From the IMG/VR virus record IMGVR_UViG_3300014838_000037, positions 1 to 41,744 of that record: DNA of 41,744 bases. The stretch is one strand, 5' to 3'. This DNA is from a virus. This document shows positions 13,491 to 34,798 of the stretch, piece by piece (within the stretch, counting starts at the first letter, position 1; the number at the start of each line of letters is the position of its first letter). The notes beneath the pieces are model-generated. The model searched no databases, had not been told where the DNA came from, and saw only the letters and a list, made by a program, of their open reading frames with translations. Position numbers and translations under genes: made by a program.

Positions 13491-13497
13491 CGCCACT

Positions 13498-13888: not shown

Positions 13889-13923
13889 CGTCCCTTGACA
13901 ATATCGAACGTATGTTCCATCAT
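13889..13923 (+). promoter_or_regulatory. phage-family promoter P7 (plus), head of right arm
   Basis: CGTCCCTTGACA (13889-13900) is followed after 17 bp by CATCAT (13918-13923), the weakest -10 of the set. The ATG of the endonuclease gene begins 8 nt later, so its mRNA is leaderless or nearly so. The spacer holds the LexA-like palindrome described separately. Confidence 0.7.
13905..13917. promoter_or_regulatory. LexA/SOS-box-like operator in P7
   Basis: CGAACGTATGTTC contains GAAC-N4-GTTC, the core of the Gram-positive/actinobacterial SOS box (TCGAAC-N4-GTTCGA). It lies exactly between the -35 and -10 of P7, where bound LexA or a phage repressor would block RNA polymerase. The P10 promoter has the same element at the same distance from the -35. 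Confidence 0.6.
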
Positions 13924-13931
13924 GGTCTAAT

Positions 13932-14396
13932 ATGGAAGAGTTGCGTCGAGAATGTGAGGTCTGTCATAGACGTCGAGCGCTGCGTTTTTTTCCGCTTGAT
14001 ACTCGACGCAGGGATGGCTTGTCACTTCGTTGTATGACTTGTGCCGGTAAGGCGCGCAAGCGCAGTACTCATGGCACGCGTATTTTTGAGAAGTTTGGGA
14101 TCACGCAGGAGCAGTATGATGCTCTCTTTGCAGCTCAGGGTGGTGTTTGCGCTATCTGTAAAGGCCGGCGGCCGTACAACCTGGACGTTGATCATGATCA
14201 TGAGCTAGAGGCTCAGGGTCTACCGCCGGCTCAGACCATACGTGGCCTGTTGTGTAAGCAGTGTAACCGGCATCTTCTTCCGGGTGCTCGAAACTCAGCC
14301 TCCACTCTACGTGCTGCTGCTGAGTATTTGGAACACCCACCGGCTGTTGGAATCCTGTTCCCTGTTACGAAAGAAGTAACAACTGCCGATGGATAG
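13932..14396 (+). CDS. HNH endonuclease, recombination endonuclease VII type
   Basis: This is a 154-aa protein. An N-terminal zinc ribbon (CEVCHRRR ... CMTCAGKARK, residues about 8-42) precedes the endonuclease VII core: GITQEQYDALFAAQGGVCAICKG, LDVDHDHE (catalytic His/Asp), IRGLLCKQCNRHL, and the helix NSASTLRAAAEYLEHPP. The CxxC pairs bind structural zinc. Such enzymes resolve branched DNA before packaging or act as free-standing HNH nucleases near terminase genes. The start ATG 13932 lies 8 nt after a -10 box, so the message is leaderless. Confidence 0.9.
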   Translation: MEELRRECEVCHRRRALRFFPLDTRRRDGLSLRCMTCAGKARKRSTHGTRIFEKFGITQEQYDALFAAQGGVCAICKGRRPYNLDVDHDHELEAQGLPPAQTIRGLLCKQCNRHLLPGARNSASTLRAAAEYLEHPPAVGILFPVTKEVTTADG

Positions 14397-14399
14397 ATC

Positions 14400-15041
14400 G
14401 TGAGTAATACGAACCCAGTTGAAAAGGGGCTTCCGGTCACCTTGCCGTCCGGGACCAAATGGCTTGTTTTGACTACGGGGGAGCAGAAGTTCGTTCAACG
14501 TCTGACCAAGGCGTACACGGACACATTCAAGTTTACTAACATCAGTGATGTCTCCGGGCTAGACCAGATTGTCCAGCTGGAGATGTTGATGCACCGGATT
14601 GCTAGTCAGCTCGCTCTAGGTCATGATTACCTAGGTGGAGTACTGCCTGACGAAGGTGGTATGCGTCGTCAGCTACAGCAGCTATCTGCTGAGCTCCGAC
14701 AGCTCAAAGACTCTCTGCGTTTGGACCGTACATCTCGTACTCAGGACGAGGACACAGAGACGATCGGCTACATCACTATGCTCCTCAAGCGTGCTGATGT
14801 TTTTGGGATCAAGCGTGATGACGAGACCGCTATGGCCATAGAGCTGATGAACGAAGTTTTAGGCAAGGTTCAGCTTTATCATAACTCGACTGAAGAAGAA
14901 CGCAAGGAGATGCGCTGTACTCCCGTAGACATCGTGGAGTGGTTGCACACTAAGGGGCGGGAGAAGTTTGATGCGATTGATCGCCACTTCCGTGAGGTTA
15001 ATAAGTTCACGTGGTTCCCGATTCCTGGGGAGGGACTATGA
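14400..15041 (+). CDS. putative terminase small subunit or packaging-associated protein
   Basis: The 213-aa, mainly helical protein has a central coiled coil (about residues 75-105, MRRQLQQLSAELRQLKDSLRL). I do not recognise specific motifs. Its place between the endonuclease and the large terminase, and its size, suggest a small terminase or associated protein. It starts at GTG 14400, 4 bp after the endonuclease stop; the end overlaps the next ATG (ATGA). The next gene carries a helix-turn-helix and is the stronger small-terminase candidate. Confidence 0.6.
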   Translation: MSNTNPVEKGLPVTLPSGTKWLVLTTGEQKFVQRLTKAYTDTFKFTNISDVSGLDQIVQLEMLMHRIASQLALGHDYLGGVLPDEGGMRRQLQQLSAELRQLKDSLRLDRTSRTQDEDTETIGYITMLLKRADVFGIKRDDETAMAIELMNEVLGKVQLYHNSTEEERKEMRCTPVDIVEWLHTKGREKFDAIDRHFREVNKFTWFPIPGEGL

Positions 15042-15646
15042 CGGTACTGCCGGCTCCTGTGCTCGTTGGCCCTAATCGTATTGACATCTCTGGCTTAATG
15101 GAGATGAACAAGTCGGCTCACAAGATCCCTTATACCGAGCGGAAGGTTGTGATTGAACGGTCTTTCCCCTCAGCGCGCAGGGGGACGATCAATTGGTCTC
15201 GGGTGTTTAGTGACCTGCATACGTTAGGCTTTGTTCTACAGGATGTACTGAAAGTGGACAGTGCTCCTCCTGGTCGTGATGGTCCTCGTCCCTTGGTAAA
15301 TGAGCGTGAAGGCATGCAACGGCTGCGTGAGATGTGGTCTGAGGACTACTCCTACTTGTCGTTCGATGAGATCCTGCAAGCCCTACAGCGGGCTAGGGGA
15401 TTGTCTGTGCGTGGGTTGGCGGCCAAGATAGGTATCAACTATGGCACAGTTTTTCGCCTGTTGCAAGGTACGCGGTCGCCCACACCTGATGAAATAGTGA
15501 TGGTGGCTGCCGCGTTCCATAAGGAACCCGCCTTCTTCCTTGACTATCGCATCGTTGTCATCACTTCAGCGTTGGAGCAGCAGCTGCGAGCCCTCCCTGA
15601 GTTGAGCGTCAAGCTTCACTCTGACCTAGTGAAGGGCGTAATTTGA
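15038..15646 (+). CDS. helix-turn-helix protein, probable terminase small subunit
   Basis: In this 202-aa protein, residues about 105-165 form an XRE-like helix-turn-helix (LSVRGLAAKIGINYGTVFRLLQGTRSPTPDEIVMVAAAF). The start ATG 15038 overlaps the upstream TGA and has GGGGAGGG in front; an earlier in-frame start at 15011 is within the previous gene. A DNA-binding protein just before the large terminase is most simply the packaging-site-recognising small subunit. A transcription repressor cannot be excluded because the domain is of the Cro/CI superfamily. Confidence 0.7.
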   Translation: MTVLPAPVLVGPNRIDISGLMEMNKSAHKIPYTERKVVIERSFPSARRGTINWSRVFSDLHTLGFVLQDVLKVDSAPPGRDGPRPLVNEREGMQRLREMWSEDYSYLSFDEILQALQRARGLSVRGLAAKIGINYGTVFRLLQGTRSPTPDEIVMVAAAFHKEPAFFLDYRIVVITSALEQQLRALPELSVKLHSDLVKGVI

Positions 15647-18463
15647 GTGCCGGTTTATGAAGCTCTTAGTGATGCAGAGAAGCGTCTTGTCGCCATTTTG
15701 CAGGACCACTCTGGCTTAGACCTGGCCGAGTTCTCTTGGTATGAGCCCAGGAACCCCGACGGGTTCTTTCGGGCCTATCCGTACCAAGTTCCTTGGTGGC
15801 GTTACCGCGACCCGATGACGATCGATTTTTGCGGTCGTTCTGTTGGCAAAACGTTGGGTATTCAGGTCAGGGGTTTCTATTTCCCGTTTGGTAATCCTGG
15901 TCACGATATGTTGATCACCGCCCCGGAGCTCACTCAGCTGACCCCCATCACCGACTTGATTGAAACTCGGTTTCTCAACCAGCGTCTAGGACGAGAGATG
16001 ATGAGGAAGCCGGCGACTCACAAACCTCACTTTCAGTTGGATTGTAAGACCAATAGTCGCATCATGGGGCGCATCCCTCACACGGATGGTACGGGTGTGA
16101 AGGGTCAGCATCCTCTTGTCTTGGAGCAGGATGAATGTTTCGTGGCTGGGACATTGGTTCTGACGCGTCGTGGCCAGGTGCCCATTGAAGACGTTGTGGT
16201 AGGGGATGAAGTTTTGACGCACAAGCGTCGTTGGCGCAAGGTAACGGCGACAACAACGCGGGAACGTGAGACTGTTATTTTGCGAGGGCAAGGACATCCG
16301 GGGCTGGAAGTCTCGGTGAAAGAGCCATTTTGGGCCGCTAGCGAAGAAAAGGGAATCTATTTACTGGAAGAGAATAGAATATCCCGCAGGAATAAGCGGT
16401 TCATACGTCCCGAATGGGTTGCTGCTGAGGATATGGAGGGGAGGTGGTGGAGCGCTCCTACGGTATTTCCCCAGAAGAAGTGGGTGCCCAGCTTGCGTTC
16501 GCCTGGCGAACGCGGAGAACTCTTGTGCGAGACAAATAACTCTGATTTTTTGTGGATTATGGGGTTATGGCTTGCCGAAGGGAGCGTCGGTGGCCATCAG
16601 GTTTGCTTTTCTGTTCACCAAAAAGAAGCTGAATATGTGAACCAACGCCTGGCTGGGTTAGGTTTGAAGACTTCAGTCTATCTCCAGAAGGGCACACTTG
16701 GTTGTAATGTTGTGGTCCAAAACTCACGCGAGTTGGGAGATTGGCTTGTAAAGAACTGTGGAAAAGGTGCTCACAATAAGGAAATTCCTTGGTGGGTACT
16801 GGGCCTGAAGGAAGAGTGGCGTCGGGCGGTTTTGGAAGGTCTAATCTACGGTGACGGCTTTGAAGACTCTGATGAACGTTACGCTCCTGGTCGTTGGAAA
16901 TTGACGACCGTTTCAAAGAAGTTGTCTGTATCATGTCGGCTCCTTGCCCTGAGTCTAGGGTATTCGGTTTCATGGTACTGGAACCCTCCTCGCAAGGTTC
17001 CTTCGGTTATCAGGGGACAAGAGGTCAAGCCGACGGGTTTCTATCAAGTCGTAGGCAACACCAAGGGCCAGGGGTTTGTTTATGACAATTGTGCGTATAC
17101 CAAGGTCCGCGAGGTGACACCCTCTGGGTGCCAGAAGACTCTTTATGACCTGACGGTCGATGAGGACCATTCATTTGTGGCAGACGGGTTCTGTGTATCG
17201 AATAGCCAAGATTATCCAGAGCGCGGCTGGGTTGAGTTGGTATCAACACTCAAGCGTGGAGAACCTCACGCAGCGCGACACATACATGGCGTTACAATAG
17301 GGGTGGAAGGAGAGTTTTATCGACAGTCCAAGCATGCCTTAGATGAGCCCGATCTGTGTCCTGTGAGTCATGCTGACCAAGGGCTGTATACTGTTTTCCG
17401 CATACCGGCTATGGCCCATCCTCTATGGACCGACGAAGAGCGTCTACGCCTCAAGAATGAGTTTCCTGATGAATCTGAGTGGCGCCGGAACGTGAGAGGT
17501 CTGCCTGGAGATGCCCTCAGTCCTATCTTCCGTAATGCCGCCCTCATGCGGGCCACTGAAGATGACCTGTCCAATCCTTTCAACACTGAGGTTTATTGGC
17601 ACAAGACCATCAAGGAGTATGAGCTATCGCCTGATCAGATGGACATCCTCGATCTTCTTGTGAAGCCTGAGGCCCACCAGACGGTTACGACGGTTTGGGT
17701 TGGTATGGACGTGGGGTTGATCAACGATCCGACTGAGATCTTGATCGTGGCCGAGATGCCCGTCTCCCCCGAGAAGCGCAAAGAACTACTCTCTCGTAAG
17801 AAGGCCTGTCCCAAGCCGGGGTTGTCACGACTGGTGCAGATCGGGCGTATATCACTACACAAGGTTACGGCTGCAGCTCAGGCTCGCGTCATCAGTTGGG
17901 TTTGTGATAACTATCCGGTCAAGCGGTTTTCTATGGACTCGACGGGCATTGGCCTGCCGATTTTTCAGGTTGTCCAGTTCCTGGCGGCACTTCCTAACGA
18001 TGACATGAGGATCCCGGCCAAGAAGGCTCTGGACGTGATCCAGCCGTACAACTTCAAGAGCAAGATCCTGGTGGCGTTCGATGACAGGATAGAGCGTGAC
18101 TTCGCCAACTTGGACGACAAGGTCAAGGAGGAGGGCCTGTATCGTGAGGTGAAGGACTGGGCTACCGACCAGTGTCGCCTCTACATCGATAACGAACGGT
18201 ATTGGTTCCCTTGGGACGTGGAGATGCTCCAGCAACTGCAGGCGTCCAGGTACAAGTACCAGCGCAATGCGTTTGACGACTACGGTCGGCGGACACGCGC
18301 TTTCACTCAGGGAGCCGACCACTGCGTGGACGCTCTTAGGATGCTTCTTTTGGGCCACTCCCAGATGACCATTGATACTTTCATGGCTAAAGAGGATGAA
18401 GTGATACACGTCCGGGTCATTGATGGTGGCTACTCTGGTGATTTTCCTTGGTTCGACGGCTAG
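15647..18463 (+). CDS. terL: terminase large subunit, intein-containing precursor
   Basis: The 938-residue precursor would give a 582-residue mature protein after removal of the intein at 164-519. The ATPase domain has a deviant Walker A CGRSVGKT (about 62-69) and Walker B LVLEQDE (157-163). The intein interrupts immediately after the acidic pair D162-E163. The RNase H-like nuclease domain has VGMDVGLINDP (D688), FSMDSTGIG, and GADHCVDALRM (D895). The protein packages DNA into the prohead and cuts it. The start is GTG 15647, directly after the upstream stop. Sequence on both sides of the intein joins smoothly into a normal terminase. Confidence 0.95.
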   Translation: MPVYEALSDAEKRLVAILQDHSGLDLAEFSWYEPRNPDGFFRAYPYQVPWWRYRDPMTIDFCGRSVGKTLGIQVRGFYFPFGNPGHDMLITAPELTQLTPITDLIETRFLNQRLGREMMRKPATHKPHFQLDCKTNSRIMGRIPHTDGTGVKGQHPLVLEQDECFVAGTLVLTRRGQVPIEDVVVGDEVLTHKRRWRKVTATTTRERETVILRGQGHPGLEVSVKEPFWAASEEKGIYLLEENRISRRNKRFIRPEWVAAEDMEGRWWSAPTVFPQKKWVPSLRSPGERGELLCETNNSDFLWIMGLWLAEGSVGGHQVCFSVHQKEAEYVNQRLAGLGLKTSVYLQKGTLGCNVVVQNSRELGDWLVKNCGKGAHNKEIPWWVLGLKEEWRRAVLEGLIYGDGFEDSDERYAPGRWKLTTVSKKLSVSCRLLALSLGYSVSWYWNPPRKVPSVIRGQEVKPTGFYQVVGNTKGQGFVYDNCAYTKVREVTPSGCQKTLYDLTVDEDHSFVADGFCVSNSQDYPERGWVELVSTLKRGEPHAARHIHGVTIGVEGEFYRQSKHALDEPDLCPVSHADQGLYTVFRIPAMAHPLWTDEERLRLKNEFPDESEWRRNVRGLPGDALSPIFRNAALMRATEDDLSNPFNTEVYWHKTIKEYELSPDQMDILDLLVKPEAHQTVTTVWVGMDVGLINDPTEILIVAEMPVSPEKRKELLSRKKACPKPGLSRLVQIGRISLHKVTAAAQARVISWVCDNYPVKRFSMDSTGIGLPIFQVVQFLAALPNDDMRIPAKKALDVIQPYNFKSKILVAFDDRIERDFANLDDKVKEEGLYREVKDWATDQCRLYIDNERYWFPWDVEMLQQLQASRYKYQRNAFDDYGRRTRAFTQGADHCVDALRMLLLGHSQMTIDTFMAKEDEVIHVRVIDGGYSGDFPWFDG
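16136..17203 (+). mobile_element. intein with LAGLIDADG homing endonuclease in terminase
   Basis: The insert of 356 residues starts at C164 (CFVAGTLVLTRRGQVPIEDVVVGDEVLT, intein block A) and ends VDEDHSFVADGFCVSN519. The next extein residue is Ser520. Two LAGLIDADG-type motifs, IMGLWLAEG (304-312) and LEGLIYGDG (396-404), keep acidic residues (E311, D403), so the endonuclease may be active. The penultimate residue is Ser instead of the usual His, as in some non-canonical inteins. Splicing must occur for a working terminase because the insertion splits the Walker B region. Confidence 0.95.
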
Positions 18464-18472
18464 AAGGACGAT

Positions 18473-18787
18473 ATGAGAAACATGCCTTCTACCAGGCCTG
18501 ATGACTTAGAACCCATTTACCAGGAGTTGATGGAGTATTCGGAGAAGATGAAGAGTCTTCATCGGATGGACTTCGACGAAGCTCGGGGTTGGATCAGTGG
18601 CACGAGCGCCAGGGTGCTGGAACTTACGTACCGAAGCCTGCGGCAGCCCAACTCACGTGCCCAGCAGATGCTACGGCTGGAGTGGTTGATCCCCATGCGG
18701 GACGAGTTGGATCGTCAGTGGAAGGTTGTGAGCCGCTCTTTGACTAACCGGCAGAGTGAGTGGGATATGACACGAGGTGGGGTATGA
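18473..18787 (+). CDS. hypothetical protein between terminase and portal (104 aa)
   Basis: The small helical protein has no recognised domain (LEPIYQELMEYSEKMKSLHRMDFDEA...). It starts at ATG 18473 with AAGGACG just upstream and ends overlapping the portal ATG (ATGA). It is translated with the portal and may assist the portal or terminase. Confidence 0.6.
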   Translation: MRNMPSTRPDDLEPIYQELMEYSEKMKSLHRMDFDEARGWISGTSARVLELTYRSLRQPNSRAQQMLRLEWLIPMRDELDRQWKVVSRSLTNRQSEWDMTRGGV

Positions 18788-20622
18788 CTACAAAGATTCA
18801 GTCTTTTACTGACCCCGTGACGGGGATGACGGGCACCGTCATCAATGACACAGATGTACCCACCGAAGAGGTATTGGCCGCTGATTGGGTGCCGAAGGAA
18901 GAGGCTACCAGGCAGCTGGCCGACGCCTTGGTGCAGTGGTCAACTCGTGTTCTTGGTCCTCCTGGTGGACGTAGGAACGGGAGCTTGTTTGATCGTGACC
19001 GGTTCATTAGCCCCAACAACCCCTTAGAGCAGATGCGCACCGCCTATGAAGCGGCCAAAGACGATGTCGTTGGTGGCTTTCTCAATTCCTCGGAGTCTCT
19101 GGCCTTTTCTAGTATTCGCATGGAGTGTGGTGACGAAGACGAGGAGGACGTCTGGTCTCAGATCATGGACCAGATCAGCATCGAGGCGCGCATTCGTGAG
19201 ATATGGCGAGAGCTCAACATCGTTAGTCAGGTCTATATAGCTGTCTGGTACGGTGAGAAGTCCTACAAGCTTCGTGGTAAGTCCCTTGATACCGGGATCA
19301 AGCGCAAGAAGCGGTACAATGACCTCAAGGTCCCACTGGGTATCACGGTATTGGATGCTTTGCGTGTCATTCCTTGTGGTGCTTACCTTTTTCACGAGCC
19401 GACCTTGTGTTACGTGGCTGAGCCGGCGGAGCTTGACGCCATTGATTCTTGGCTGATGGGAGATGATGCTAGTGGTGTCGATCCTATCGTGGCCAGGCTG
19501 ATCATAGCTAAATACAATCCTGACTACCGTGATCGTAAAGAGCTGGGTGGTCTCGGTATCGACCCCAACCGCCTGTACACCCTCAACCCGAACTGCGTGT
19601 TTAGGCACACAGTGACGCGCCCGAGTTATGAGCGCTGGGCGCCCCTGAAGATGGCAACGATCTTTGAGTTGCTTGACATGAAGACCCAGCTACATGCTTC
19701 TGATCGTGCCATGCTTTTAGGTGCAGCCAATTTTATTGTTCTGATCAAGAAGGGTACCGATACTCTCCCGGCTAAGCAGATGGAGATTGACGAGCTGCAG
19801 TCCCGTGTGCTGCGTCTGGGGCGTAATGCCATCTTGGTCGGTGACCACCGTATGTCCGTTGAGATCATCACCCCCAAGACGGACGACACGATCAATCCCG
19901 AAAAGTGGTCTGTGCTCGATATGAACATCCAGGCTGCTCTGTGGGGTCTGTACCATCGCCAGCATACCGGTATGGATGACTCTCTCAAGCTCGCTCGTGT
20001 TACGGCCAGAGGTATGGAGTCTCAGCGTGACATGCTGACCAAGGAGCTGATGAAGAAGATCTTCCTTCCGACTTTCGAAATGAACGATCAGCTCGTCCAG
20101 TTTCCTTCCTTAGAGATGTACCCACATCGTATTGCTTTGGACTGGGACCCGTCTCTGGCAACCTTCTACCTCGATCTGGCTGACAGGAAGCTTCTCAGTA
20201 ACCGGACTACCCTCAACCTGGTGGACATTGATCTTGTTGTTGAGGTGGAACGGCGGAAGTTGGAGATAGAAAAGTACGACAAGTTCCTTGGTCCCAATGC
20301 TGGTCTCAGTGAGGCAGAGGTGCACCAGCAGGCCCTTGGCCCTCTTGCCCCCGCTCTACTTACTCCTGCCAACAGTACCGCCCCACAGAAAGGGGAACCC
20401 AAGCCTGGTGCTGCAAATGATCCCAAGTCAGCCGGTAGGGCTCAGGGTGGTAACCATGGCCAGGGTGGCAATGGTGGTGCTCGTCGTGGGGCCGGCCAGG
20501 CTCCTCGCAGTGGAGTATCCACAACGGATGGTCCTAAGCGTCCAGCGGTTCCAAGTAGTGGAGCTCCAAAGGGTGTTCGTAGTCGGCCGGCGGCAGAGAA
20601 GCACAATGTCCCCAGCAACTGA
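18784..20622 (+). CDS. portal protein
   Basis: The protein has 612 aa from ATG 18784, which overlaps the previous stop (ATGA) and follows GAGGTGGGG; an upstream ATG at 18760 is less likely. The size, position after terminase, N-terminal region with paired helices, central region (IREIWRELNIVSQVYIAVWYG), and long helical segment (QAALWGLYHRQHTGMDD...LTKELMKKIFLP) match dodecameric portal proteins of siphophages. The C-terminal about 110 residues are low complexity, rich in Gly, Pro, Ala and Arg. The portal forms the DNA entry vertex. Confidence 0.85.
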   Translation: MTTKIQSFTDPVTGMTGTVINDTDVPTEEVLAADWVPKEEATRQLADALVQWSTRVLGPPGGRRNGSLFDRDRFISPNNPLEQMRTAYEAAKDDVVGGFLNSSESLAFSSIRMECGDEDEEDVWSQIMDQISIEARIREIWRELNIVSQVYIAVWYGEKSYKLRGKSLDTGIKRKKRYNDLKVPLGITVLDALRVIPCGAYLFHEPTLCYVAEPAELDAIDSWLMGDDASGVDPIVARLIIAKYNPDYRDRKELGGLGIDPNRLYTLNPNCVFRHTVTRPSYERWAPLKMATIFELLDMKTQLHASDRAMLLGAANFIVLIKKGTDTLPAKQMEIDELQSRVLRLGRNAILVGDHRMSVEIITPKTDDTINPEKWSVLDMNIQAALWGLYHRQHTGMDDSLKLARVTARGMESQRDMLTKELMKKIFLPTFEMNDQLVQFPSLEMYPHRIALDWDPSLATFYLDLADRKLLSNRTTLNLVDIDLVVEVERRKLEIEKYDKFLGPNAGLSEAEVHQQALGPLAPALLTPANSTAPQKGEPKPGAANDPKSAGRAQGGNHGQGGNGGARRGAGQAPRSGVSTTDGPKRPAVPSSGAPKGVRSRPAAEKHNVPSN

Positions 20623-21049
20623 GGAGGACAAGAAGGCTTTCAGTTTTGGTGGTCTGGACGGTGCCCAAGCCGCCATAGGGCTGGTGATTGTTGCCAGTGC
20701 CGCTGGGCGTCTGGCCGTCCTCTTGGTGATTGTGGGGCTGCTTATTACTGAGGGCCTGGGGATGGCAGCCGACGATTGGGCTTCAGAGACAGCTCATGGG
20801 TTCCGGGAGGTAGTCGATATGGGGATCGGGACCTCCCTGCCTATCTTCATGGTCGGTCTTCCCTGGTTGTTTGCTCAAGGTACGGTGGCTATCGTACAGT
20901 CAGCCCTCATTGCCTTTTTTATAGTGCTGGGGTTGTGTTGGATGGTGAACCCTCGGCTCTCGAAAGTCCTGGTCAAGATGGGTATTCTCTCCGGCTTATG
21001 TGGACTGTCCCTCTTGGCGAATATATATCTGCCCGGTCTTGTCCATTAA
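20606..21049 (+). CDS. membrane protein with about four transmembrane segments (147 aa)
   Basis: I start it at ATG 20606, within the last 17 bp of the portal gene, because the rest of the open frame upstream is out-of-frame portal sequence. Hydrophobic segments lie at about residues 20-48, 72-90, 92-112 and 120-143. There is no known family. Holin-like or prohead-associated functions are possible; head genes surround it. Confidence 0.6.
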   Translation: MSPATEEDKKAFSFGGLDGAQAAIGLVIVASAAGRLAVLLVIVGLLITEGLGMAADDWASETAHGFREVVDMGIGTSLPIFMVGLPWLFAQGTVAIVQSALIAFFIVLGLCWMVNPRLSKVLVKMGILSGLCGLSLLANIYLPGLVH

Positions 21050-21061
21050 TGAGGAGTTTTT

Positions 21062-21253
21062 ATGACTGATACCCTATCCACTGAAGCTGAGCTTCAGGAA
21101 GCTCAGGCGCTTGTCGTTACACTGCAGCGCGAAGTCGCCACCGAAGTGGATGCTGCTGCTGTTGTAGCTGCGACGCCACCACTTCCGACAACTGCAGCTA
21201 CCGCTGTGGAGCCTCTAAGGGACGTTGCTCCGGAGTTGAAGACCGGCTGCTAG
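21062..21253 (+). CDS. small hypothetical protein (63 aa)
   Basis: ATG 21062 follows a good ribosome-binding site (GAGGAG, 21051-21056). The first 30 residues are helical; the rest is Ala-, Thr-, Val- and Pro-rich. No family is recognised. It ends with a 4-bp tail-to-tail overlap with a minus-strand gene. Confidence 0.5.
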   Translation: MTDTLSTEAELQEAQALVVTLQREVATEVDAAAVVAATPPLPTTAATAVEPLRDVAPELKTGC

Positions 21254-21516: not shown

Positions 21517-21556
21517 ATAGTTGGTATCGCCCGAGGCGGTGTCGAAAGGTATGGCG

Positions 21557-22318: not shown

Positions 22319-22329
22319 AGGGGCTAAAT

Positions 22330-23325: not shown

Positions 23326-23357
23326 ATCTGTTATAGACCGGAACGACACTGATAACG

Positions 23358-24732: not shown

Positions 24733-25719
24733 ATGAGCGATAAAACCCTACGCGATCTTTACGGACGTGACCGTGAAGATGTTGCTACGCAGCGCGAAAT
24801 GGCATCTCGTCTCAACGAGATGGCTCGTGACAGGTTCTTTGATGATTCCTGGCGCAAGGAGATGACTCAGGTTCTTACTGAGACCATCTATTTGGGCTTC
24901 GAGCATGAGAACCTTCTGGCCCTCATGACTCAGGTTCAGAACGCCGGCTTCGACGAGCGTGTTACGGTCGAAGAGCGTCGGGGCCTTCGGGCTTTCTTCG
25001 TGGCTCGTGGTGGGTACATCGAGGCCAGTGGCATGAATGCACAGGTCATCGAGGTCCCCCGTGTTACTTGCGGGTTCCACGTTTTCGAGTTTGAGGACAA
25101 GCTTCGGGTCAATTTCGCTGAAACTCAGGCCACCCTTGTGGAGCTTGGTGTTCAGCGGCTCGATGCCACCGTCAACAGCTGGATGTTCGGTACGCTGCAG
25201 TCTGCAGTCCCGAGCGGCAGCCCCTTCTACGAGAGTGTAGCTGGGTTGAACACCAACCTCGCCACACTGGATGCAGCCATTACCAACGTACGTCAGGTCA
25301 GCCGTGACTATGAGTGCGTCATCGTCGGTCTTCCTTCCATGGTCGACCAGATTCGTGATGCACTGATTGGCACCGCTGGTGGCCTCGTACAGAGCAGGTT
25401 CCTTCCTGAGACCAACGAAGAGTTGTTCCGCAGGGGCGTTATCGGTAAGTACTGGGGCGCCAACATCGTTACCCTGAAGAACTACACCGATGATCTCGGC
25501 AACCCGTTCTTCCCGGCCAACGAGCTCTGGGTTTTGGGCCGTGACGCTAGCAAGTTCGTCTTTTATGGTGGTCCCACCACTCACGAGTGGCTCAACCCCG
25601 CAGCCGGCGAATGGCACTACCTCACCCGCCGGGACCTCGGTATGATCGTTCACCGTCCATACCGTACTCGCCGCATCGTCGACACCGACATTCAGCCGTA
25701 CACCCCAATTTACGACTGA
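24733..25719 (+). CDS. major capsid protein
   Basis: The 328-aa protein follows the portal-protease-scaffold order and is followed by a terminator. The sequence has the mixed alpha/beta pattern of HK97-fold capsid proteins, with an N-terminal helical arm, IYLGFEHENLLALMTQVQNAGFDERVTVEE (E-loop-like region), and a C-terminal domain ending LGMIVHRPYRTRRIVDTDIQPYTPIYD. ATG 24733 follows GAGAGGAGG. It forms the icosahedral shell. Confidence rests on position and overall pattern rather than a diagnostic motif. Confidence 0.85.
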   Translation: MSDKTLRDLYGRDREDVATQREMASRLNEMARDRFFDDSWRKEMTQVLTETIYLGFEHENLLALMTQVQNAGFDERVTVEERRGLRAFFVARGGYIEASGMNAQVIEVPRVTCGFHVFEFEDKLRVNFAETQATLVELGVQRLDATVNSWMFGTLQSAVPSGSPFYESVAGLNTNLATLDAAITNVRQVSRDYECVIVGLPSMVDQIRDALIGTAGGLVQSRFLPETNEELFRRGVIGKYWGANIVTLKNYTDDLGNPFFPANELWVLGRDASKFVFYGGPTTHEWLNPAAGEWHYLTRRDLGMIVHRPYRTRRIVDTDIQPYTPIYD

Positions 25720-25739
25720 GCAGTCCAGCTCTGAAGAAG

Positions 25740-25768: not shown

Positions 25769-25771
25769 GAG

Positions 25772-25806
25772 CGTCCCTTGACGCTCTTCGATGAGCACAC
25801 TAATAT
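25772..25806 (+). promoter_or_regulatory. phage-family promoter P8 (plus)
   Basis: CGTCCCTTGACG (25772-25783), then 17 bp, then TAATAT (25801-25806), one of the best -10 boxes of the set. The gene at 25846 has a normal ribosome-binding site, so this transcript has a leader of about 33 nt. An ATG at 25815 starts a 17-codon frame within it. Confidence 0.8.
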
Positions 25807-25845
25807 GCCGCTATATGTGTCTATGGACAAAACAAGGAGTAGTCA

Positions 25846-26606: not shown

Positions 26607-26619
26607 CGATACCTTGTGC

Positions 26620-27595: not shown

Positions 27596-27630
27596 CGTCC
27601 CTTGACGGACGCTGGTACTAGTCTTACCCT
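27596..27630 (+). promoter_or_regulatory. phage-family promoter P9 (plus), leaderless start
   Basis: CGTCCCTTGACG (27596-27607), then 17 bp, then TACCCT (27625-27630), then 6 nt, then ATG 27637. It begins right after the DUF192 stop codon. Confidence 0.75.
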
Positions 27631-27636
27631 GGCTGT

Positions 27637-27900
27637 ATGCCTGAGCGTTACTACGAACCCGCCCGCCATGGGCAATGGGATAACCTTCCTATGCCAACCA
27701 CAGTGGAGGAGTTGACGCAGCGTGTAGCGGTGTTGGAAGCGGCGCTGGGCTTCTACTCTAACGCTCAGTCATATGGTCTTGATGCGGACGGGCCGCCCTC
27801 TAATTGGGACCTTGTTGTTGATGCCGGTTTGCGAGCACGGCTGGGTCGTACATCTGGGACTATGGATGACTTTCTCAACAGGCTTCAGGCCCTTTTGTGA
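27637..27900 (+). CDS. small hypothetical protein (87 aa), leaderless
   Basis: The start ATG 27637 is 6 nt after a -10 box, with no ribosome-binding site, so the message is leaderless. Residues 20-45 form a predicted coiled coil (TVEELTQRVAVLEAALGFYSNA) and the end is helical. No family is recognised. It precedes the AAA+ ATPase gene. Confidence 0.65.
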   Translation: MPERYYEPARHGQWDNLPMPTTVEELTQRVAVLEAALGFYSNAQSYGLDADGPPSNWDLVVDAGLRARLGRTSGTMDDFLNRLQALL

Positions 27901-27927
27901 AGACTGTTACAGGCTTTGTAATGGATC

Positions 27928-29187
27928 ATGTCTACTTCATCTAATGTCGTAGAGTCTACCGATACTAGTCCTCTCGGTATCCTTACTCGTTATGGTGGCA
28001 AGTACGGTAAGTGGATTGGCATGGCTCTTGCCACGCATCAGGTTGTGTGGCCGGCATATAAGAAGATTCGTGACTGGCATAAAGACCGGTCTGTTTACAC
28101 CATTACTGTGAATGGTACCGATGGGATCTATCTCGATTTACACGAGTGGGTTTTGACTCTTTTGCCCGCAGTGGATAGACGTGCTCTTGTTGCTGAGAGT
28201 AGCTGCGGTGTTATATCGGGAGATATAGATTCGGACTTTCAACAACCCAAGGCAATGCCTTCTCAGATGCGTTTGCGTTATGATGGGAGTCGTACACAAA
28301 AGATCATTCTCAATGGGTTTGAGGTGACGGTTGCCATAGAGCACGAAAATATCCCTGATCGTGAGAAATTGCCAGACCAATGGCAGCGGTTTTTCGAGAA
28401 GATCGTGTTTACGGTCTATTCGACGGAAGCTCGCGATGTGGTAGTGGAGCGGTTAGAGGAGGTCGCTCAAGCGAAACTTCTTCAACCGGGACCGCCGCCT
28501 CTAAAGATTCCCAACAGGTGGGGTGACGGTTTCAGCACACGTCTCGATATTCCTCCTCGGCGGTTGGAGAGCGTCATACTCAAAAAGGGCCAGCTTGAGT
28601 ACTTGGTGGACGACCTGCAAATGTTCTTGGATTCAGAGCAGCAGTATGGTGATTTTGGGCGCCCGTACCATCGAGGGTACCTGTTCTACGGTATTCCTGG
28701 CACTGGCAAGACGACAGTGGCGAGAGCTTTGGCAGACCATTTCAAGTTACCGATTTACTACTTGCCTTTGGCGGATATCAAGAAAGACACTGATTTGATG
28801 GCATTGATGGGTGCTATTCGTCCTCGGTCTATATTACTGTTAGAGGATGTTGATATTTTTCAGGCCACCACGCAGCGCACTGAGGAGAAGGGTTCGGTAA
28901 CTCTATCTGCTGTATTGAATGCGCTTGACGGGATCTGGACGCCGCATGGGTTGATTACCATTATGACGACCAACGATCTGACCGCCTTGGACCCGGCACT
29001 TTTACGTGCTGGTCGTATTGATATCAAGGAAGAATTCACTGCCCTGGATGAATATCAGATCGGGCGATTTTTGGAGTTTTTCCAGGTATCACGTACATCA
29101 GATTTTTGGCATTTTTTGAGCCATTCTCCAGCGGAGCTTATCGAGACAATCTGTGCTCAGAAGTTAATGGCTCGCAAGAAGGCATGA
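27928..29187 (+). CDS. BCS1-like AAA+ ATPase
   Basis: This is a 419-aa protein. A helical N-terminal segment (about 15-50, including a moderately hydrophobic stretch) precedes a beta-rich domain (about 55-180) and the AAA+ core. Core motifs are Walker A YGIPGTGKT (254-262), Walker B ILLLEDVD (302-309), sensor 1 TTN (347-349) and LLRAGRID (358-365) with the arginine finger. The LLEDVD-Q and N-A-LDG-W (about 331-337) motifs are typical of the BCS1 subfamily. In eukaryotes BCS1 translocates a folded protein; bacterial homologues are largely unstudied. The start lacks a clear ribosome-binding site. The stop overlaps the methyltransferase start. Confidence 0.88.
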   Translation: MSTSSNVVESTDTSPLGILTRYGGKYGKWIGMALATHQVVWPAYKKIRDWHKDRSVYTITVNGTDGIYLDLHEWVLTLLPAVDRRALVAESSCGVISGDIDSDFQQPKAMPSQMRLRYDGSRTQKIILNGFEVTVAIEHENIPDREKLPDQWQRFFEKIVFTVYSTEARDVVVERLEEVAQAKLLQPGPPPLKIPNRWGDGFSTRLDIPPRRLESVILKKGQLEYLVDDLQMFLDSEQQYGDFGRPYHRGYLFYGIPGTGKTTVARALADHFKLPIYYLPLADIKKDTDLMALMGAIRPRSILLLEDVDIFQATTQRTEEKGSVTLSAVLNALDGIWTPHGLITIMTTNDLTALDPALLRAGRIDIKEEFTALDEYQIGRFLEFFQVSRTSDFWHFLSHSPAELIETICAQKLMARKKA

Positions 29188-29810
29188 TGGATCTTCCTGT
29201 CGGTCCCTTTGGTACTTGTCTTGCCGATCCACCCTGGAGGTTCATCAATCGGCATGGTAAGGTGGCACCCGAGTATCGCCGGCTGAAGAAATATGAGACG
29301 ATGACTGTGGATGAAATCAGTGCCATAGAGGTTGGTGGTGTGATGGCTTCTCAGTCTCACTGCTATCTTTGGGTGCCCAATGCTTTGGTTGCCGAGGGGC
29401 TGCAGGTCATGGCCGCGTGGGGGTTCACTTATAAGGCTATGATTGTGTGGCATAAGATCCGTAAGGATGGCGGTACCCACGGCGGAGGGGTGGGGTTCTA
29501 TTTTCGCAATGCTACAGAATTGGTGCTCTTTGGTAGTAGGGGTAAGCTGCGAACCTTGTCGCCAGGTCGTACGCAAGTAAACTTTATCGAGGCGCAGAAG
29601 CGGGAGCACAGTCGTAAACCAGATGAGCTTTACTCAATCATTGAAAGTTGTTCGCCAGGGTCTTACTTAGAGTTGTTTGCTCGCTATTCTCGGGAAGGTT
29701 GGGTGTCTTGGGGCGATCAGCTCGTGAGTATGCCGGCTCTTAGGGACGATACAGGACTTGATGATCGATCTCAGCGACACAGCGATAGGCAGCCTGCAAA
29801 ACTTTCTTAA
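29184..29810 (+). CDS. MT-A70 family adenine-N6 methyltransferase
   Basis: The 208-aa protein starts at ATG 29184 (ATGA overlap with the ATPase). The catalytic DPPW motif is in LADPPWRF (15-18). The later region (KIRKDGGTHGGGVGFYFRNATELVLFGSRGK, REHSRKPDELYSIIESCSPGSYLELFARYSREGW) fits MT-A70 enzymes, with the SAM-binding Lys-Pro-Asp-Glu and LELFAR segments near the end. It methylates adenine N6 in DNA or RNA. It may protect phage DNA from restriction or mark it. There is no linked restriction enzyme. Confidence 0.9.
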   Translation: MMDLPVGPFGTCLADPPWRFINRHGKVAPEYRRLKKYETMTVDEISAIEVGGVMASQSHCYLWVPNALVAEGLQVMAAWGFTYKAMIVWHKIRKDGGTHGGGVGFYFRNATELVLFGSRGKLRTLSPGRTQVNFIEAQKREHSRKPDELYSIIESCSPGSYLELFARYSREGWVSWGDQLVSMPALRDDTGLDDRSQRHSDRQPAKLS

Positions 29811-30363
29811 CCCCGCCGGGCAGTCAGTGGTGGTTATGACCGATGCGCAGGCCTTATCGCGTTTGTTTGATGCCTTTTGGTGGCTGCGGATGGCCGGCAT
29901 GGACATCTTGTCTTCGTGGACTTGTGACACCGATGGCATCATCACACCCCAGCCCAATCCGCCGCAGTGGACCTTTGGGCAAGATGTTCCTACCGGATGG
30001 TATACGGATGCTCAAGGGGCCACCGACCTGGGGCAAGAGATTGTCATGGCTATCGTTGTAGTGGCCGCCCATCACGCAATAGTAGCTCAGTTGAGCCAGC
30101 TGCAGACTTCCTTATCCGTCAAGGCCGGCCCAGTGAGCTACGAGGTGCAGCAGTCGTCTACCATGATGTTGGGGGTCCTAAAGAATATCCAGAATCAGGT
30201 CGCTCTTATCCTGAAGCGTCTTTCTGACCTGGGCTTTACGACTGAGGCTGTCTTCGATGCCGTGTTGACTAATACCCAGGCCATTGAAAACGATGTTGCC
30301 TCCTGGTCGCGTGGGGGGTATGCCGACATGGGCGGTCCATACCGTAGTTATTCGGGGTACTGA
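29761..30363 (+). CDS. hypothetical protein (200 aa)
   Basis: ATG 29761 lies within the last 50 bp of the methyltransferase gene, so the two overlap in different frames. A hydrophobic stretch (about 90-112, EIVMAIVVVAAHHAIVAQL) is followed by a long helical coil (about 110-185). The C-terminus is Gly/Tyr-rich. It may be a membrane-associated or structural protein. No family is recognised. Confidence 0.55.
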   Translation: MIDLSDTAIGSLQNFLNPAGQSVVVMTDAQALSRLFDAFWWLRMAGMDILSSWTCDTDGIITPQPNPPQWTFGQDVPTGWYTDAQGATDLGQEIVMAIVVVAAHHAIVAQLSQLQTSLSVKAGPVSYEVQQSSTMMLGVLKNIQNQVALILKRLSDLGFTTEAVFDAVLTNTQAIENDVASWSRGGYADMGGPYRSYSGY

Positions 30364-30608
30364 TGCTTGATGTCAAGCTGAAGAGTCTTCTGGAGGTGCC
30401 ATTGGTCGCCTTACATAAGGCTACTGAGGCTATTGATTTCACACCTCTTGAGCACGGCGGATTTGTAATGGATGCCTTCTTGCCTGGTGACAGCGGTCTC
30501 ATTGAGATTGCGTTTGATGAAGATGGGTACCTGGTGAGCGCCTGGTGGCAGGTAGGAGACGTGGAAGAGTGGAGAGAGTGGGTGGGTGATGGCGGGGACC
30601 AATCCTAA
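30363..30608 (+). CDS. small hypothetical protein (81 aa)
   Basis: ATG 30363 overlaps the previous TGA (TGATG). The sequence is acidic and beta-rich (DSGLIEIAFDEDGYLVSAWWQVGDVEEWREW). No family is recognised. The end overlaps the next gene by 20 bp. Confidence 0.55.
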   Translation: MLDVKLKSLLEVPLVALHKATEAIDFTPLEHGGFVMDAFLPGDSGLIEIAFDEDGYLVSAWWQVGDVEEWREWVGDGGDQS

Positions 30609-31050
30609 GTTCAACGCAACATCGGTAAGGGCCGCCCTCCACCTGGGTATGACCATGGGGCAACCCAATACTCCAAGCGACCGAGCAACCTTTCAATGGA
30701 AGCCTCAACCGGTCTATGCTCCTAAGCCAGCGGGACCGAGTGGGGTGCCTTACGATCTAAATGAGCTTCCTACCTCCAAGACGGCCATCAAGGATATACA
30801 GCTACTTTGTGCTGTGGAGTATGGTAATGCTGCACAGGAAGGAACCCCTGCTGGGTTCGAGGAAGCCCTGAAGGCTACCGTTACGCTCATGGATACCGAG
30901 TATACCCAACTACTTGCCCGAGGAAAGGGTAGGCTACCTGACTTCATCCTTTTGGGAGGGGCGCTTTTCAACATAGATTATACCGTGGGTCCATATGCCG
31001 TCTTTGACATGGAAGCGCGGCAATTCTACTGCACAGCACAGGACAAATAA
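30589..31050 (+). CDS. hypothetical protein, possible head-tail connector (153 aa)
   Basis: ATG 30589 lies within the preceding gene's end after a purine-rich stretch. Residues about 65-90 are helical (AIKDIQLLCAVEYGNAAQEG) and the C-terminus is beta-rich (PDFILLGGALFNIDYTVGPYAVFD). It sits in the connector/tail-completion region. I recognise no family; the role is by position only. Confidence 0.5.
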   Translation: MAGTNPKFNATSVRAALHLGMTMGQPNTPSDRATFQWKPQPVYAPKPAGPSGVPYDLNELPTSKTAIKDIQLLCAVEYGNAAQEGTPAGFEEALKATVTLMDTEYTQLLARGKGRLPDFILLGGALFNIDYTVGPYAVFDMEARQFYCTAQDK

Positions 31051-31053
31051 GCC

Positions 31054-31647
31054 ATGAGCGCCACCAATACATCTTTCTATGCTTCGGGTATCGCCTCTTT
31101 TCTGAGTGGCGCCGTTGACTGGACCAGTGACGATGTCTACCTGGCTCTAGTGCAGGCTAGTTACAGTCCCAACTTGGCTGCTGATTCTGCTTGGGCACCC
31201 GTTAGTGAGTGCGAGGCTGTTGGGGCCGGTTACACTCCCGGCGGTGCTCAGCTGGCATCAACGAGTATCAATGTGGTCTCGGTTGGTGGTAACTGGTTGG
31301 CCAGCACCGCCTTTGCAGAGAACCAAGTGGTGCAAGCAGGGTCTGGTCTTGCTGTCTGTGTGGTGACTGGGACGACTGGTAGTGTTGTGCCTAAGTGGCC
31401 TACTGCTCAAGGGGTGACGGTCCAAGATGGGACTGTGACGTGGGCCTATTTGGGTAAATGGGGAATTGCGCTGAGCTCGTCTGCTGTGAGTTGGAACCCG
31501 CTTACTGTGACGAATGTTCGTTATGGGGTGATCTACTCGGGCGAGCGTCTTTTAGCTCTGATCGACATGGGAAGTGCTTTCACTCTCGATGGTCCTTGGG
31601 GTCTGCAGCCCGACCCTGTCACTGGTTGGCTGTTCTACAGTGGCTAA
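31054..31647 (+). CDS. virion structural protein with carbohydrate-binding-like module (197 aa)
   Basis: The middle part (about 85-130) reads NWLASTAFAENQVVQAGSGLAVCVVTG...PKWPTAQGVTVQDGTVTWAYLG. This motif, W-x2-TAY/F-x3-Q-VV ... WP-x6-V-x-DGTVTW, recurs in phage virion proteins and resembles a small chitin-binding-type beta fold. It may decorate the virion or help bind the cell surface. The N-terminal part (MSATNTSFYASGIASFLSGAVDWTSDDVYLALV) is typical of phage structural proteins. ATG 31054 follows the previous stop. Confidence 0.65.
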   Translation: MSATNTSFYASGIASFLSGAVDWTSDDVYLALVQASYSPNLAADSAWAPVSECEAVGAGYTPGGAQLASTSINVVSVGGNWLASTAFAENQVVQAGSGLAVCVVTGTTGSVVPKWPTAQGVTVQDGTVTWAYLGKWGIALSSSAVSWNPLTVTNVRYGVIYSGERLLALIDMGSAFTLDGPWGLQPDPVTGWLFYSG

Positions 31648-32290
31648 CATCACCGTCGGCAGTGCCTGGGCACCTGCTTACTCGCAGGTGGTGACTAGGA
31701 ATAATGTCTCCTATGGCGGCGGCGTTCGGGCGCGTTTCATCTACGATAGTCTGTGGTACATGCTCAAGGGGTCTTTGGGGCTTCTTGGCTGGTTTAATCC
31801 CACCGTCACTGATATTCCACCAGGTACGCGTCAGAACCTACCGGTGCAGTTTTTGGCTAGGCAGTTGGATTGGACTCAGCCGATCACACTCAATACTCTT
31901 GCTTTTGCCCCCGACGACGTGAGCTCAGAGGAGAAGGAGCTGGGCAGCATCATGATGGAGGACGTCTGGGTCTACTACTGCGACATCTTCGCTGAGAGTG
32001 AAGCAATTAGTTTGCAGCTAGCAGGGGATATGAAGGACATTCTCTGGGGTAAGATGTCGGCCGTGGGCCGTACTTTTGGTCCCACGGTGGATATCTTGGA
32101 CCTTGATCAGCCGGGGCACTACAAGATCGGGTATGTGGAGATCGCCAACGTTACCGCCACCAGGAGCCCCAATGTTGCTCAACGTTGGCAGCAGTTCCTG
32201 CGGGTTGTGCGGTTTGAGGTGTGCGACTGGTATATCTTGGATAACGATGACCTGTCTACCGGTCGAGCTCAGTGGGCGTTTCAGCCGTGA
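31640..32290 (+). CDS. hypothetical head-tail or tail protein (216 aa)
   Basis: The start is GTG 31640, overlapping the end of the previous gene by 8 bp; the open frame upstream is out-of-frame sequence. It is mixed alpha/beta with a long acidic stretch (about 95-150). It lies before the tail genes and may be a connector or tail terminator. No family recognised. Confidence 0.5.
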   Translation: MANITVGSAWAPAYSQVVTRNNVSYGGGVRARFIYDSLWYMLKGSLGLLGWFNPTVTDIPPGTRQNLPVQFLARQLDWTQPITLNTLAFAPDDVSSEEKELGSIMMEDVWVYYCDIFAESEAISLQLAGDMKDILWGKMSAVGRTFGPTVDILDLDQPGHYKIGYVEIANVTATRSPNVAQRWQQFLRVVRFEVCDWYILDNDDLSTGRAQWAFQP

Positions 32291-33285
32291 CGGGACCAAC
32301 GGAGGCGCGGGCTATACCTAATAGTATTGCTGAGTTGCAGCGCCAGCGACAGTTAGCCGAGGCGCGTATCAAGGCCTCAGCTATAGGTGTCATTAAGCAG
32401 TCCGTTGCTGTTGCTGTTGGGGACTTGCTGGAATCTATCAACATTGAGCTGACTGCTTGGGCGAGCCGTCTCGCCTCAGCTTTGAGCGAGAAGAATACAG
32501 GTGCTCTACAAGGGGACCTCATGACGTTGGGTCGTGAGGCTCAATTGAGGATGCTCAATGCCTATGGACAGTTGGTGACGCGCCAGGAAGGCCCTGCTTC
32601 CCGTACCCATTATCGCGCCGGCCAGGGGCGTTTAGCTGGAGGGATTTTGTTGAGGGCTTTGGGTCGTGGGGACTTTTTTGAGGTACATGGGACCACCCTC
32701 TCCTGGGGCAATGTCTCTATGCTCGACGGTGCCGCCCGTCAGTGGCACCGGATAGCTTTTGGGGCTGGCCGTGGTGGTATTCATGACGAGTTTGCTGTTA
32801 CTTTTAATGATCTCGTGCTGGCCACAATTGGAGTGGCGGGTGGGCCATCTCCTGGGTTCTCAATGCCTGCAGGTATCTGGGTCCCTCCTGGTAGCGCAGG
32901 TCAGAAAGGAGCGCTACGTGCTCCTAGCGGGGGCCGGGGTGACGATGAGTTTTATCCTCATCACGGTGGTGTTTCTCAAGCGGTTGAGTTCAAGCCTGGT
33001 CATTTTACGATGATGCCTAACTTGTCGGCCAGTGAGATGTTACTCAGGGACCGGGGTCGGCCACGCAAGATGACTATGCAGGGTCCTCGTCCAACGCGAG
33101 GTATCAAGCCTCACGACTTCTTCAACGCTGGTGTCCGTTATCTTGCTGGGCAAGCAGGCGGTAAGCAGGGTGGTTTGGGGATGGTGTTGGAGAGGTACGC
33201 CAACAACCTGACCAAGGCGTGGGTGGACAGTGCTGGGCGTATGCAGAAAACGGTCCGGGTGAATGTGGTGGCGCGTGGGCTCTAA
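32287..33285 (+). CDS. hypothetical virion/tail protein (332 aa)
   Basis: The start is GTG 32287, overlapping the previous TGA. Residues 10-100 are helical, with a putative coiled coil; residues 100-330 are Gly-, Arg- and beta-rich (FFEVHGTTLSWGNVSMLDGAARQWHRIAFGAGRGG, GFSMPAGIWVPPGS). It may be a minor head or tail protein. Position before the major tail protein supports a connector or tail-completion role. Confidence 0.55.
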   Translation: MTGPTEARAIPNSIAELQRQRQLAEARIKASAIGVIKQSVAVAVGDLLESINIELTAWASRLASALSEKNTGALQGDLMTLGREAQLRMLNAYGQLVTRQEGPASRTHYRAGQGRLAGGILLRALGRGDFFEVHGTTLSWGNVSMLDGAARQWHRIAFGAGRGGIHDEFAVTFNDLVLATIGVAGGPSPGFSMPAGIWVPPGSAGQKGALRAPSGGRGDDEFYPHHGGVSQAVEFKPGHFTMMPNLSASEMLLRDRGRPRKMTMQGPRPTRGIKPHDFFNAGVRYLAGQAGGKQGGLGMVLERYANNLTKAWVDSAGRMQKTVRVNVVARGL

Positions 33286-33379
33286 TAAGAAACAAAGGTC
33301 TGTCGATACTGCTGGTGTGATTTGTAACGAGATGACGGCCTGCTCGCCGTCCATGCCGTCTGATCGGAAGGTGTTCTAA
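33275..33379 (+). CDS. possible very small ORF before the major tail gene (34 aa)
   Basis: A GTG-initiated 34-codon frame (VGSNKKQRSVDTAGVI...) overlaps the end of the previous gene by 11 bp and ends one base before the major tail ATG. It would keep ribosomes moving into the tail gene. The evidence is only the tight fit of its ends, so it could be accidental. Confidence 0.3.
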   Translation: MGSNKKQRSVDTAGVICNEMTACSPSMPSDRKVF

Positions 33380-34762
33380 ATGGCTCTCAAGTCTAATCAG
33401 ATTCTTTTCACAGGTTCTGTGGGCGGAGGTAGTTCGGGGACGTCCTATGGCAACTCCTTCATCATCGATCGTATTCAGAGTGGGGACATCAACCCCAACA
33501 TTACCAATGAGACGATCACTGAAGTTGGTAACCCCAAGCCCGTTGGCATCATTCGTGATGCCCCGGCCGCTCTCACTACGACCATTGAGTCGTACGACGT
33601 CACCGCCAAGCTAGAGGCCATCTTACTCAACCTCGATCCCCAAGATTCCACCTCCCTCACTCCTGGGATGGCACTGGACTTTGGTAACCAGGTTCCCTTC
33701 AGTCTTTTGTGCCCCATTCGGCAGGGCATCAATTTGTCTGCGGTCTATGGCGGCGTCATCATGCCTCACATGTCGCTCTCCGAGGTCAGCTATAGGTTTG
33801 GGCTCAAGCAGGATGCCCAGCAGACCTATACCCTCAACGGCGACAGCATGTTCTACGGTCCGGCGGGAACGGTACCATGCGAGATGATCAGCGCGGGCGA
33901 CGGGACCCTTGGGCAGGTTTTTACTCTGCCCTATGCTCCCGTCGCTTATACTGACCCGGCTTCAGGGAACACCATGTTCGTCTTGAATGTCACCGTCTAC
34001 CCCGCCGATTCCTCGACTCCTTACCGTTTGCTCAACGGGCCTTCTTTTGACTACCAGGACCATGGCCAGGCCGGCAATGGCTACGGTGGTGCCATTACCA
34101 CCTTCACCCTCAACAGCAACGTTTCAATTCCTACTGGCTGGATGGTCAAGGCTCAGTATTTTACGCTGAACTCGGCTGATGCCCTGTCCATTCCGCAGGC
34201 TGATAACGCTGCTGACGGTATAACTGTCAAGCCGGCCGCCATTCGGGCCTGGAACATCGATGTGTACTACGCCACCACAGTTACCACTCCTGTGTGGCAC
34301 CGGTTGAGCAACGTTCAGTCTGTCGACGCCACCTGGCAAGCGACAGGCTTCGAGGCGAACGATGAGTTCGGGTCTCCGCTCTCGGTGTCTTATGACTATG
34401 TCACCTCTGCTGTTTCGGGGACCATCACCACCCGTCCTGACAGCGTGAAGATCATGGTAGGCCAGCTTTCTGAGCTGCTGAACGTCGATTCTTCTCGGGT
34501 CATTGGTATGCTTTCTGGTCTACCTTTGAGCATTCTGATGGTCTTGAAGTGCCCCAACGGCGTCGCCGGGGTTGCCCCTGGAACGATCCTCAAGACGCTC
34601 TACGTTCCTGATGCCATCTTTGATCCGCCTCAGCTGACTTCTCGTACAGCTCAGAAGATCGACCTGCCATTCAAGTTCTATTCGAACACCGGCACGCTCA
34701 TTACCTACAACGGTGGTACCGGAGACCTCGTCACCGGTGGGACCATAGGATCTTCGGGATAA
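33380..34762 (+). CDS. major tail protein
   Basis: The 460-aa, nearly all-beta protein lies just upstream of the tail-chaperone pair and tape measure. It begins MALKSNQILFTGSVGGG and includes TLTGEV-like strands and Thr/Ser/Gly-rich loops. The size is larger than the simplest tail-tube proteins, perhaps because of an added beta domain (about 160-300). It assembles into the tail tube. The role is inferred from position and composition. Confidence 0.75.
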   Translation: MALKSNQILFTGSVGGGSSGTSYGNSFIIDRIQSGDINPNITNETITEVGNPKPVGIIRDAPAALTTTIESYDVTAKLEAILLNLDPQDSTSLTPGMALDFGNQVPFSLLCPIRQGINLSAVYGGVIMPHMSLSEVSYRFGLKQDAQQTYTLNGDSMFYGPAGTVPCEMISAGDGTLGQVFTLPYAPVAYTDPASGNTMFVLNVTVYPADSSTPYRLLNGPSFDYQDHGQAGNGYGGAITTFTLNSNVSIPTGWMVKAQYFTLNSADALSIPQADNAADGITVKPAAIRAWNIDVYYATTVTTPVWHRLSNVQSVDATWQATGFEANDEFGSPLSVSYDYVTSAVSGTITTRPDSVKIMVGQLSELLNVDSSRVIGMLSGLPLSILMVLKCPNGVAGVAPGTILKTLYVPDAIFDPPQLTSRTAQKIDLPFKFYSNTGTLITYNGGTGDLVTGGTIGSSG

Positions 34763-34763
34763 G

Positions 34764-34798
34764 CGTCCCTTGACGACATAGAACGCTTGTTCTATTCT
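34764..34798 (+). promoter_or_regulatory. phage-family promoter P10 (plus), LexA-box type
   Basis: CGTCCCTTGACG (34764-34775), then 17 bp, then TATTCT (34793-34798), then 6 nt, then ATG 34805. The spacer contains the palindrome listed next. Confidence 0.8.
34779..34794. promoter_or_regulatory. LexA/SOS-box-like operator in P10
   Basis: TAGAAC-GCTT-GTTCTA is a perfect 6-bp inverted repeat and contains GAAC-N4-GTTC. Its GAAC begins 5 bp after the -35, as in P7. Binding would cover the promoter spacer and the start of the -10. Confidence 0.6.

Follow-up and report, generated by a model that had tools for sequence, protein, structure and literature searches.

Two promoters in a 41,744-nt stretch of DNA from an uncultured tailed phage (the window, meaning the whole of the DNA that was analysed) carry the palindrome GAAC-N4-GTTC in the spacer between their -35 and -10 elements, and the arrangement that results is the SOS promoter layout of bacteria. 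Judged from the sequence, the two palindromes are probably LexA operators, the SOS layout of the host's own LexA class having been built into both promoters. Host LexA would then most likely restrain the genes behind them until the SOS response sets in.

A promoter family and its divergent hub

The two promoters, PR and PT, belong to a nine-member family defined by the 12-mer CGTCCCTTGAC[A/G] and a -10-like hexamer at a distance of 16-17 bp. The members of the left arm lie on the minus strand and those of the right arm on the plus strand.

660, 6352, 8172, 13610 and 13871 (-): -35 positions of the family members of the left arm
13895, 25778, 27602 and 34770 (+): -35 positions of the family members of the right arm
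13844..13871 (-): divergent leftward promoter PL, -35 TTGACA 13871-13866, -10 TAATCT 13849-13844, without the palindrome
13866..13900 (no strand): promoter hub, perfect inverted repeat TGTCAAGGGACG / CGTCCCTTGACA
13895..13923 (+): promoter PR, -35 TTGACA 13895-13900, 17-bp spacer, -10 CATCAT 13918-13923
13906..13917 (+): SOS-box-like candidate operator 1, GAACGTATGTTC; extended AT-C-GAAC-N4-GTTC-C-AT at 13903-13920
34770..34798 (+): promoter PT, -35 TTGACG 34770-34775, 17-bp spacer, -10 TATTCT 34793-34798
34781..34792 (+): SOS-box-like candidate operator 2, GAACGCTTGTTC; perfect 18-bp dyad ATAGAACGCTTGTTCTAT at 34778-34795

An earlier, sequence-only reading had placed the palindrome 5 bp after TTGACA or TTGACG at 13906-13917 and 34781-34792 and had found it missing from the other copies of the family. 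A pattern search confirms both points, the palindrome being carried by the promoters at 13895 and 34770 and lacking in the remaining seven of the nine. The same reading had each palindrome ending at the -10 or overlapping it, which calls for a small correction: each of them starts 5 bp downstream of TTGAC[A/G] and runs through the 17-bp spacer up to the base that precedes the -10. The first abuts its -10 as claimed and overlaps it only when the AT flanks are counted. Including these flanks, the dyad of both sites reads AT-n-GAAC-N4-GTTC-n-AT, and at site 2 it is perfect over all 18 bases.

The hexamer CGTCCC directly precedes the -35 of PR (13889-13894) and of PT (34764-34769), and it is invariant directly upstream of TTGAC[A/G] in all nine promoters. 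An extended -35 of this kind hints either at recognition by a second factor or at an operator that overlaps it; the stoperators of mycobacteriophages offer a comparison. The phage also encodes a sigma-70-family factor with regions 2, 3 and 4 (1873-2646, minus strand), the nearest relative found being in the viral contig L002 (57%); this factor is no more than a possible reader of the CGTCCCTTGAC promoters.

Site 1 lies at a divergent early/late promoter hub, in which the extended -35 elements of PL and PR stand back to back and form the inverted repeat. The two -35 hexamers are 23 bp apart, so that two polymerases may not fit, and the start codon behind PL lies at 13837. To the left of the hub, intergenic AT-rich AATAGATCTATT palindromes at 13497-13544 are a possible replication origin or regulator site. 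Farther to the left, an exact 26-bp direct repeat (GTCGCTCTGGTGGAAGCTTACTAGCA, 866-891 and 1884-1909) flanks the gene 893-1873 beside the sigma gene and looks like a duplication or insertion scar.

Promoter context rather than palindrome count

The window holds two copies of GAAC-N4-GTTC. Dinucleotide shuffles average 0.47 copies and reach two or more in 5 of 100 cases, a count that is only mildly significant, and the palindrome by itself was dropped as evidence for being too weak. The part that is not chance is the promoter context. The composite TTGAC-N6-GAAC-N4-GTTC matches with 0 mismatches at just the two palindrome sites, where about 0.0012 exact matches would be expected per window under uniform base composition and shuffles average 0.07 matches at up to 1 mismatch.

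When PR and PT are aligned over 32 nt, 26 positions are identical. The 6 differences spare the 12 dyad positions (AT, GAAC, GTTC, AT) as well as the 11 positions of the extended -35, with p about 9e-5 if they were randomly placed; the same test confined to dyad and filler positions gives p = 0.0015. Because the differences avoid it, the dyad looks preserved, even if one promoter was copied from the other. The two are in fact so alike that one is maybe a duplicate of the other and not an independent gain.

The layout in bacterial genomes

Named bacterial genomes were scanned with the pattern common to both sites, TTGAC-N3-AT-n-GAAC-N4-GTTC-n-AT, which yielded at least 120 matches. Most of those listed come from Actinomycetota, Firmicutes and Chloroflexota, in which GAAC-N4-GTTC is the sequence that LexA recognises. 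Fifty ORFs directly downstream, hand-picked as plausible genes among the matches listed and hence giving an SOS fraction that is not unbiased, include 11 ImuA', 8 DNA polymerase IV, 2 error-prone DnaE2, 2 LexA and 1 RecA. For counts by phylum the pattern was combined with a -10 and run on even draws of genomes, with the reversed pattern as a control. Chloroflexota gave 33 matches in 151 genomes (control 0) and Actinomycetes 8 in 198 (control 1), while none of the 143 genomes drawn from a proteobacterial class matched (control 1). It is because SOS genes lie downstream and the enrichment is phylum-specific that the layout, of which the phage has two in 42 kb, can be equated with that of SOS promoters.

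The phage promoters have in common with bacterial imuA'/dinB SOS promoters the -35, the 5-nt gap, the operator and the -10; in the bacterial promoters an ATG or GTG often follows about 35 nt from TTGAC. They differ in that the phage copies have CGTCCC before the -35 and drive phage genes. Both sites carry the core dyad of a LexA operator, placed where a bound repressor would occlude the core promoter and in the same register as in the imuA', dinB, dnaE2, lexA and recA promoters. The proposal of LexA/SOS-like operators, put forward earlier from the palindrome, is therefore strengthened by the promoter layout and by the phylum enrichment over the reversed control, the operators themselves being predicted ones. 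Many viral contigs, among them L212, L218, L232 and L243, share one element, TTGACTTAATTGAACGCTTGTTCTATTCGCGCGC, in nearly identical form; it has the same SOS-like layout, and its 17-mer GAACGCTTGTTCTATTC matches site 2 of the window at every base.

Operator flanks as clues to the host

Site 1 (ATCGAACGTATGTTCCATCAT), with its ATG 37 nt from TTGAC, is close to actinobacterial imuA' promoters (..CGAAC..GTTCGATCAT), in which ATG or GTG most often stands 35 nt from TTGAC. Its 17-bp spacing and the placement of its -10 match theirs, and of the -10 hexamers in actinobacterial SOS promoters of this layout GATCAT, which may be compared with the CATCAT of PR, is one of the two most frequent. The outer base pair of the dyad tells a different story, being C/C and asymmetric at site 1 and A/T and symmetric at site 2 (ATAGAAC..GTTCTATTCT). 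An outer A/T pair is found at 18 of 23 Chloroflexota, 10 of 39 Firmicutes and 0 of 32 actinobacterial sites, and 27 of those 32 have the C/G pair of the actinobacterial box, a comparison that is only indicative, the pattern itself having been used to select the sites. That box, tCGAAC-N4-GNNCGa, is the LexA consensus of Streptomyces venezuelae (PMC9380542). The likeness to the core of actinobacterial SOS boxes claimed earlier accordingly holds for the core dyad and fails at the outer C/G pair, and the actinobacterial label is not secure for either operators or host. Homology of endonuclease VII and SSB points to actinophages; single-gene homology was set aside as proof of host, the sigma factor, a methyltransferase and an AAA protein disagreeing.

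Genes behind the two promoters

13932..14396 (+): endonuclease VII gene, first in the right arm (PF02945 8.7e-17; phrog_307 2.8e-29)
15011-15646: HTH_3 protein, made from the PR unit, directly before the terminase
15647..18463 (+): terminase large subunit with intein (Hint/LAGLIDADG domains), PR unit
18760..20622 (+): portal-like protein, PR unit, assigned from gene order
24733..25719 (+): probable major capsid protein, PR arm, assigned from gene order and conservation
34805..34957 (+): leader, from the predicted start of PT to the next gene, within which lies a 46-codon ORF lacking homologs
34958..35746 (+): probable tail assembly chaperone, 31% match to the GX15bay protein at the same place
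from about 36085: tape-measure frame, running off the window (phrog_34405 match 3.4e-6)

The claim that site 1 opens the right, virion-gene arm is supported, with endonuclease VII, the HTH protein, terminase, the portal-like protein and the probable capsid all downstream. The start codon of endonuclease VII comes 9 bp past the end of the -10, so the transcript is probably leaderless. Since the promoters at 25778 and 27602 further along the arm have no operator, LexA could delay only part of it. The terminase matches those of GX15bay and L002 on both sides of the inserted stretch; the L002 homolog is shorter and has no intein. The GX15bay homolog of the portal-like gene is annotated PhoH, and it carries an insertion of its own.

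PT lies between the gene 33380-34762 and the probable chaperone at 34958. The chaperone gene is overlapped, in a different frame, by an open frame (35629-36042) that lies upstream of the tape-measure frame. Site 2 had been said to control a tiny ORF before the chaperone gene, and as to placement this is correct. The ORF (34805-34945) has no PHROGs family match, however, and coincides with a strongly folded RNA, its ATG at 34805 falling on the predicted start of PT. The 154 nt from 34804 to 34957 fold with -64 kcal/mol (z -3.84, 0 of 200 shuffles) into a 5' hairpin, a pair of hairpins enclosed by a 12-bp stem, and one further hairpin in which the ribosome-binding site of 34958 is paired. No Rfam family scores above threshold for the leader, and the same gap in GX15bay, L053 and L060 holds one strong hairpin. 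The segment 34805-34957 is probably in the main a structured leader RNA, from which a 46-aa peptide could still be made.

Conservation in related phages, proposed earlier as a check, lends no support. Neither GX15bay and L002 nor any of the 39 capsid relatives, whose capsids are 40-59% identical, have the composite at the equivalent places; at no more than 59% they are too distant to refute it either. Queries with the portal, capsid, major-tail, recombinase and sigma proteins recovered distant relatives only, and no match to known phages was found at the DNA level.

How host LexA could act, and other readings

PR and PT would have adopted the layout TTGAC-N6-GAAC-N4-GTTC-nATnnT, PR starting the packaging/virion arm and PT the tail-chaperone/tape-measure unit. 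With host LexA sitting in their spacers, both promoters would be closed to RNA polymerase, and at PR the bound repressor would at the same time favour PL, the leftward, replication-side promoter of the hub. RecA activated by outside damage, or by ssDNA arising from the phage's own replication, would bring about LexA cleavage and so open PR and PT. This would serve either the timing of late genes during infection or the induction of a dormant state, the sequence fitting both.

A dormant state is possible, if doubtful. The phage would then be a temperate or plasmid-like element, kept dormant by LexA as its lysogeny repressor and induced by SOS. GIL01 is the precedent: its lysogenic promoter P1 is kept off by host LexA (PMC4551915). 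This is a variant of the LexA explanation and compatible with LexA binding, and the failure to find an S24-domain phage repressor agrees with it. It sits less well with the leftward, replication-side promoters, which have no operator, and with the lack of integrase and partition genes among the genes scanned, although missing lysogeny genes prove little, the contig being incomplete. Scans for the capsid in sequenced bacterial genomes and in a set of 796 genomes from two phyla found no copy, a weak result given that there was no positive control.

A rather unlikely, though conceivable, reading is that the phage is mostly lytic and that host LexA serves it as a checkpoint on replication. PR would stay closed and polymerase be steered to PL until replication, through ssDNA and a UvsX-like recombinase or host RecA, triggered the cleavage of LexA and released the packaging and tail genes; SOS would in effect be an early-to-late clock.

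The dyads might instead be operators for a regulator that the phage itself encodes, such as the HTH_3 protein of 15011-15646; it would feed back on PR and PT, and the likeness to LexA sites would be convergent. The HTH_3 gene does lie in the PR unit, and the two sites of the genome are both in phage promoters. We nevertheless regard such a regulator as quite improbable. The full geometry of an SOS promoter would have to be a coincidence, and a gene for an S24 peptidase (LexA/CI-like) is missing among the genes scanned. The HTH_3 gene is moreover shared with GX15bay and L002, neither of which has the palindrome; from its conservation and its place directly ahead of the terminase, it may encode a small terminase subunit. 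Least plausible is a dyad of no regulatory role, caught by chance in the spacer of a promoter that was then duplicated: a palindrome that is only mildly rare and the 26 of 32 positions shared by PR and PT would allow it, but the differences between the two avoid the dyad, which stands in exact SOS register.

Comparison with known systems

If the palindromes are bound by host LexA as proposed, a lineage of phages seen almost exclusively in metagenomes would join those that read the damage state of their host, with LexA placed at the switch to virion genes and not at a lysogeny repressor. The pattern search would also be a cheap and testable way to spot SOS-wired promoters in metagenomic phages, with hints at the phylum of the host.

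Host LexA is used by several phages (PMC9437464). In GIL01/Bam35-type tectiviruses, CTXphi, coliphage 186 and similar phages, a phage promoter has a site for the host SOS repressor, through which phage genes are tied to DNA damage (PMC4551915, PMC9437464); the site here is a predicted one. GIL01 has LexA on its early, lysogenic promoter P1, and its lytic genes are activated by a phage-encoded LexA homologue (PMC6182141). The candidate operators of the present phage, in contrast, are in the packaging/virion and tail promoters, and the leftward promoters are free of them. Phage structural genes within a LexA regulon are known from S. venezuelae, where the prophage tail-fibre gene vnz_21525, up 526-fold in the SOS-regulon table, and its neighbours have a TCGAAC box (PMC9380542). 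In that prophage the boxes are imperfect, and each starts 123-182 bp ahead of the start codon, whereas here full dyads lie inside the core promoter with near-leaderless starts. Phages controlled by CtrA or Spo0A (lytic deferment) likewise have a host transcription factor delay their development (PMC9437464), the factor and the signal differing from those proposed here. LexA-controlled phage promoters are thus already known, and what is particular to this phage is the position of the candidate operators, at the virion and tail promoters.
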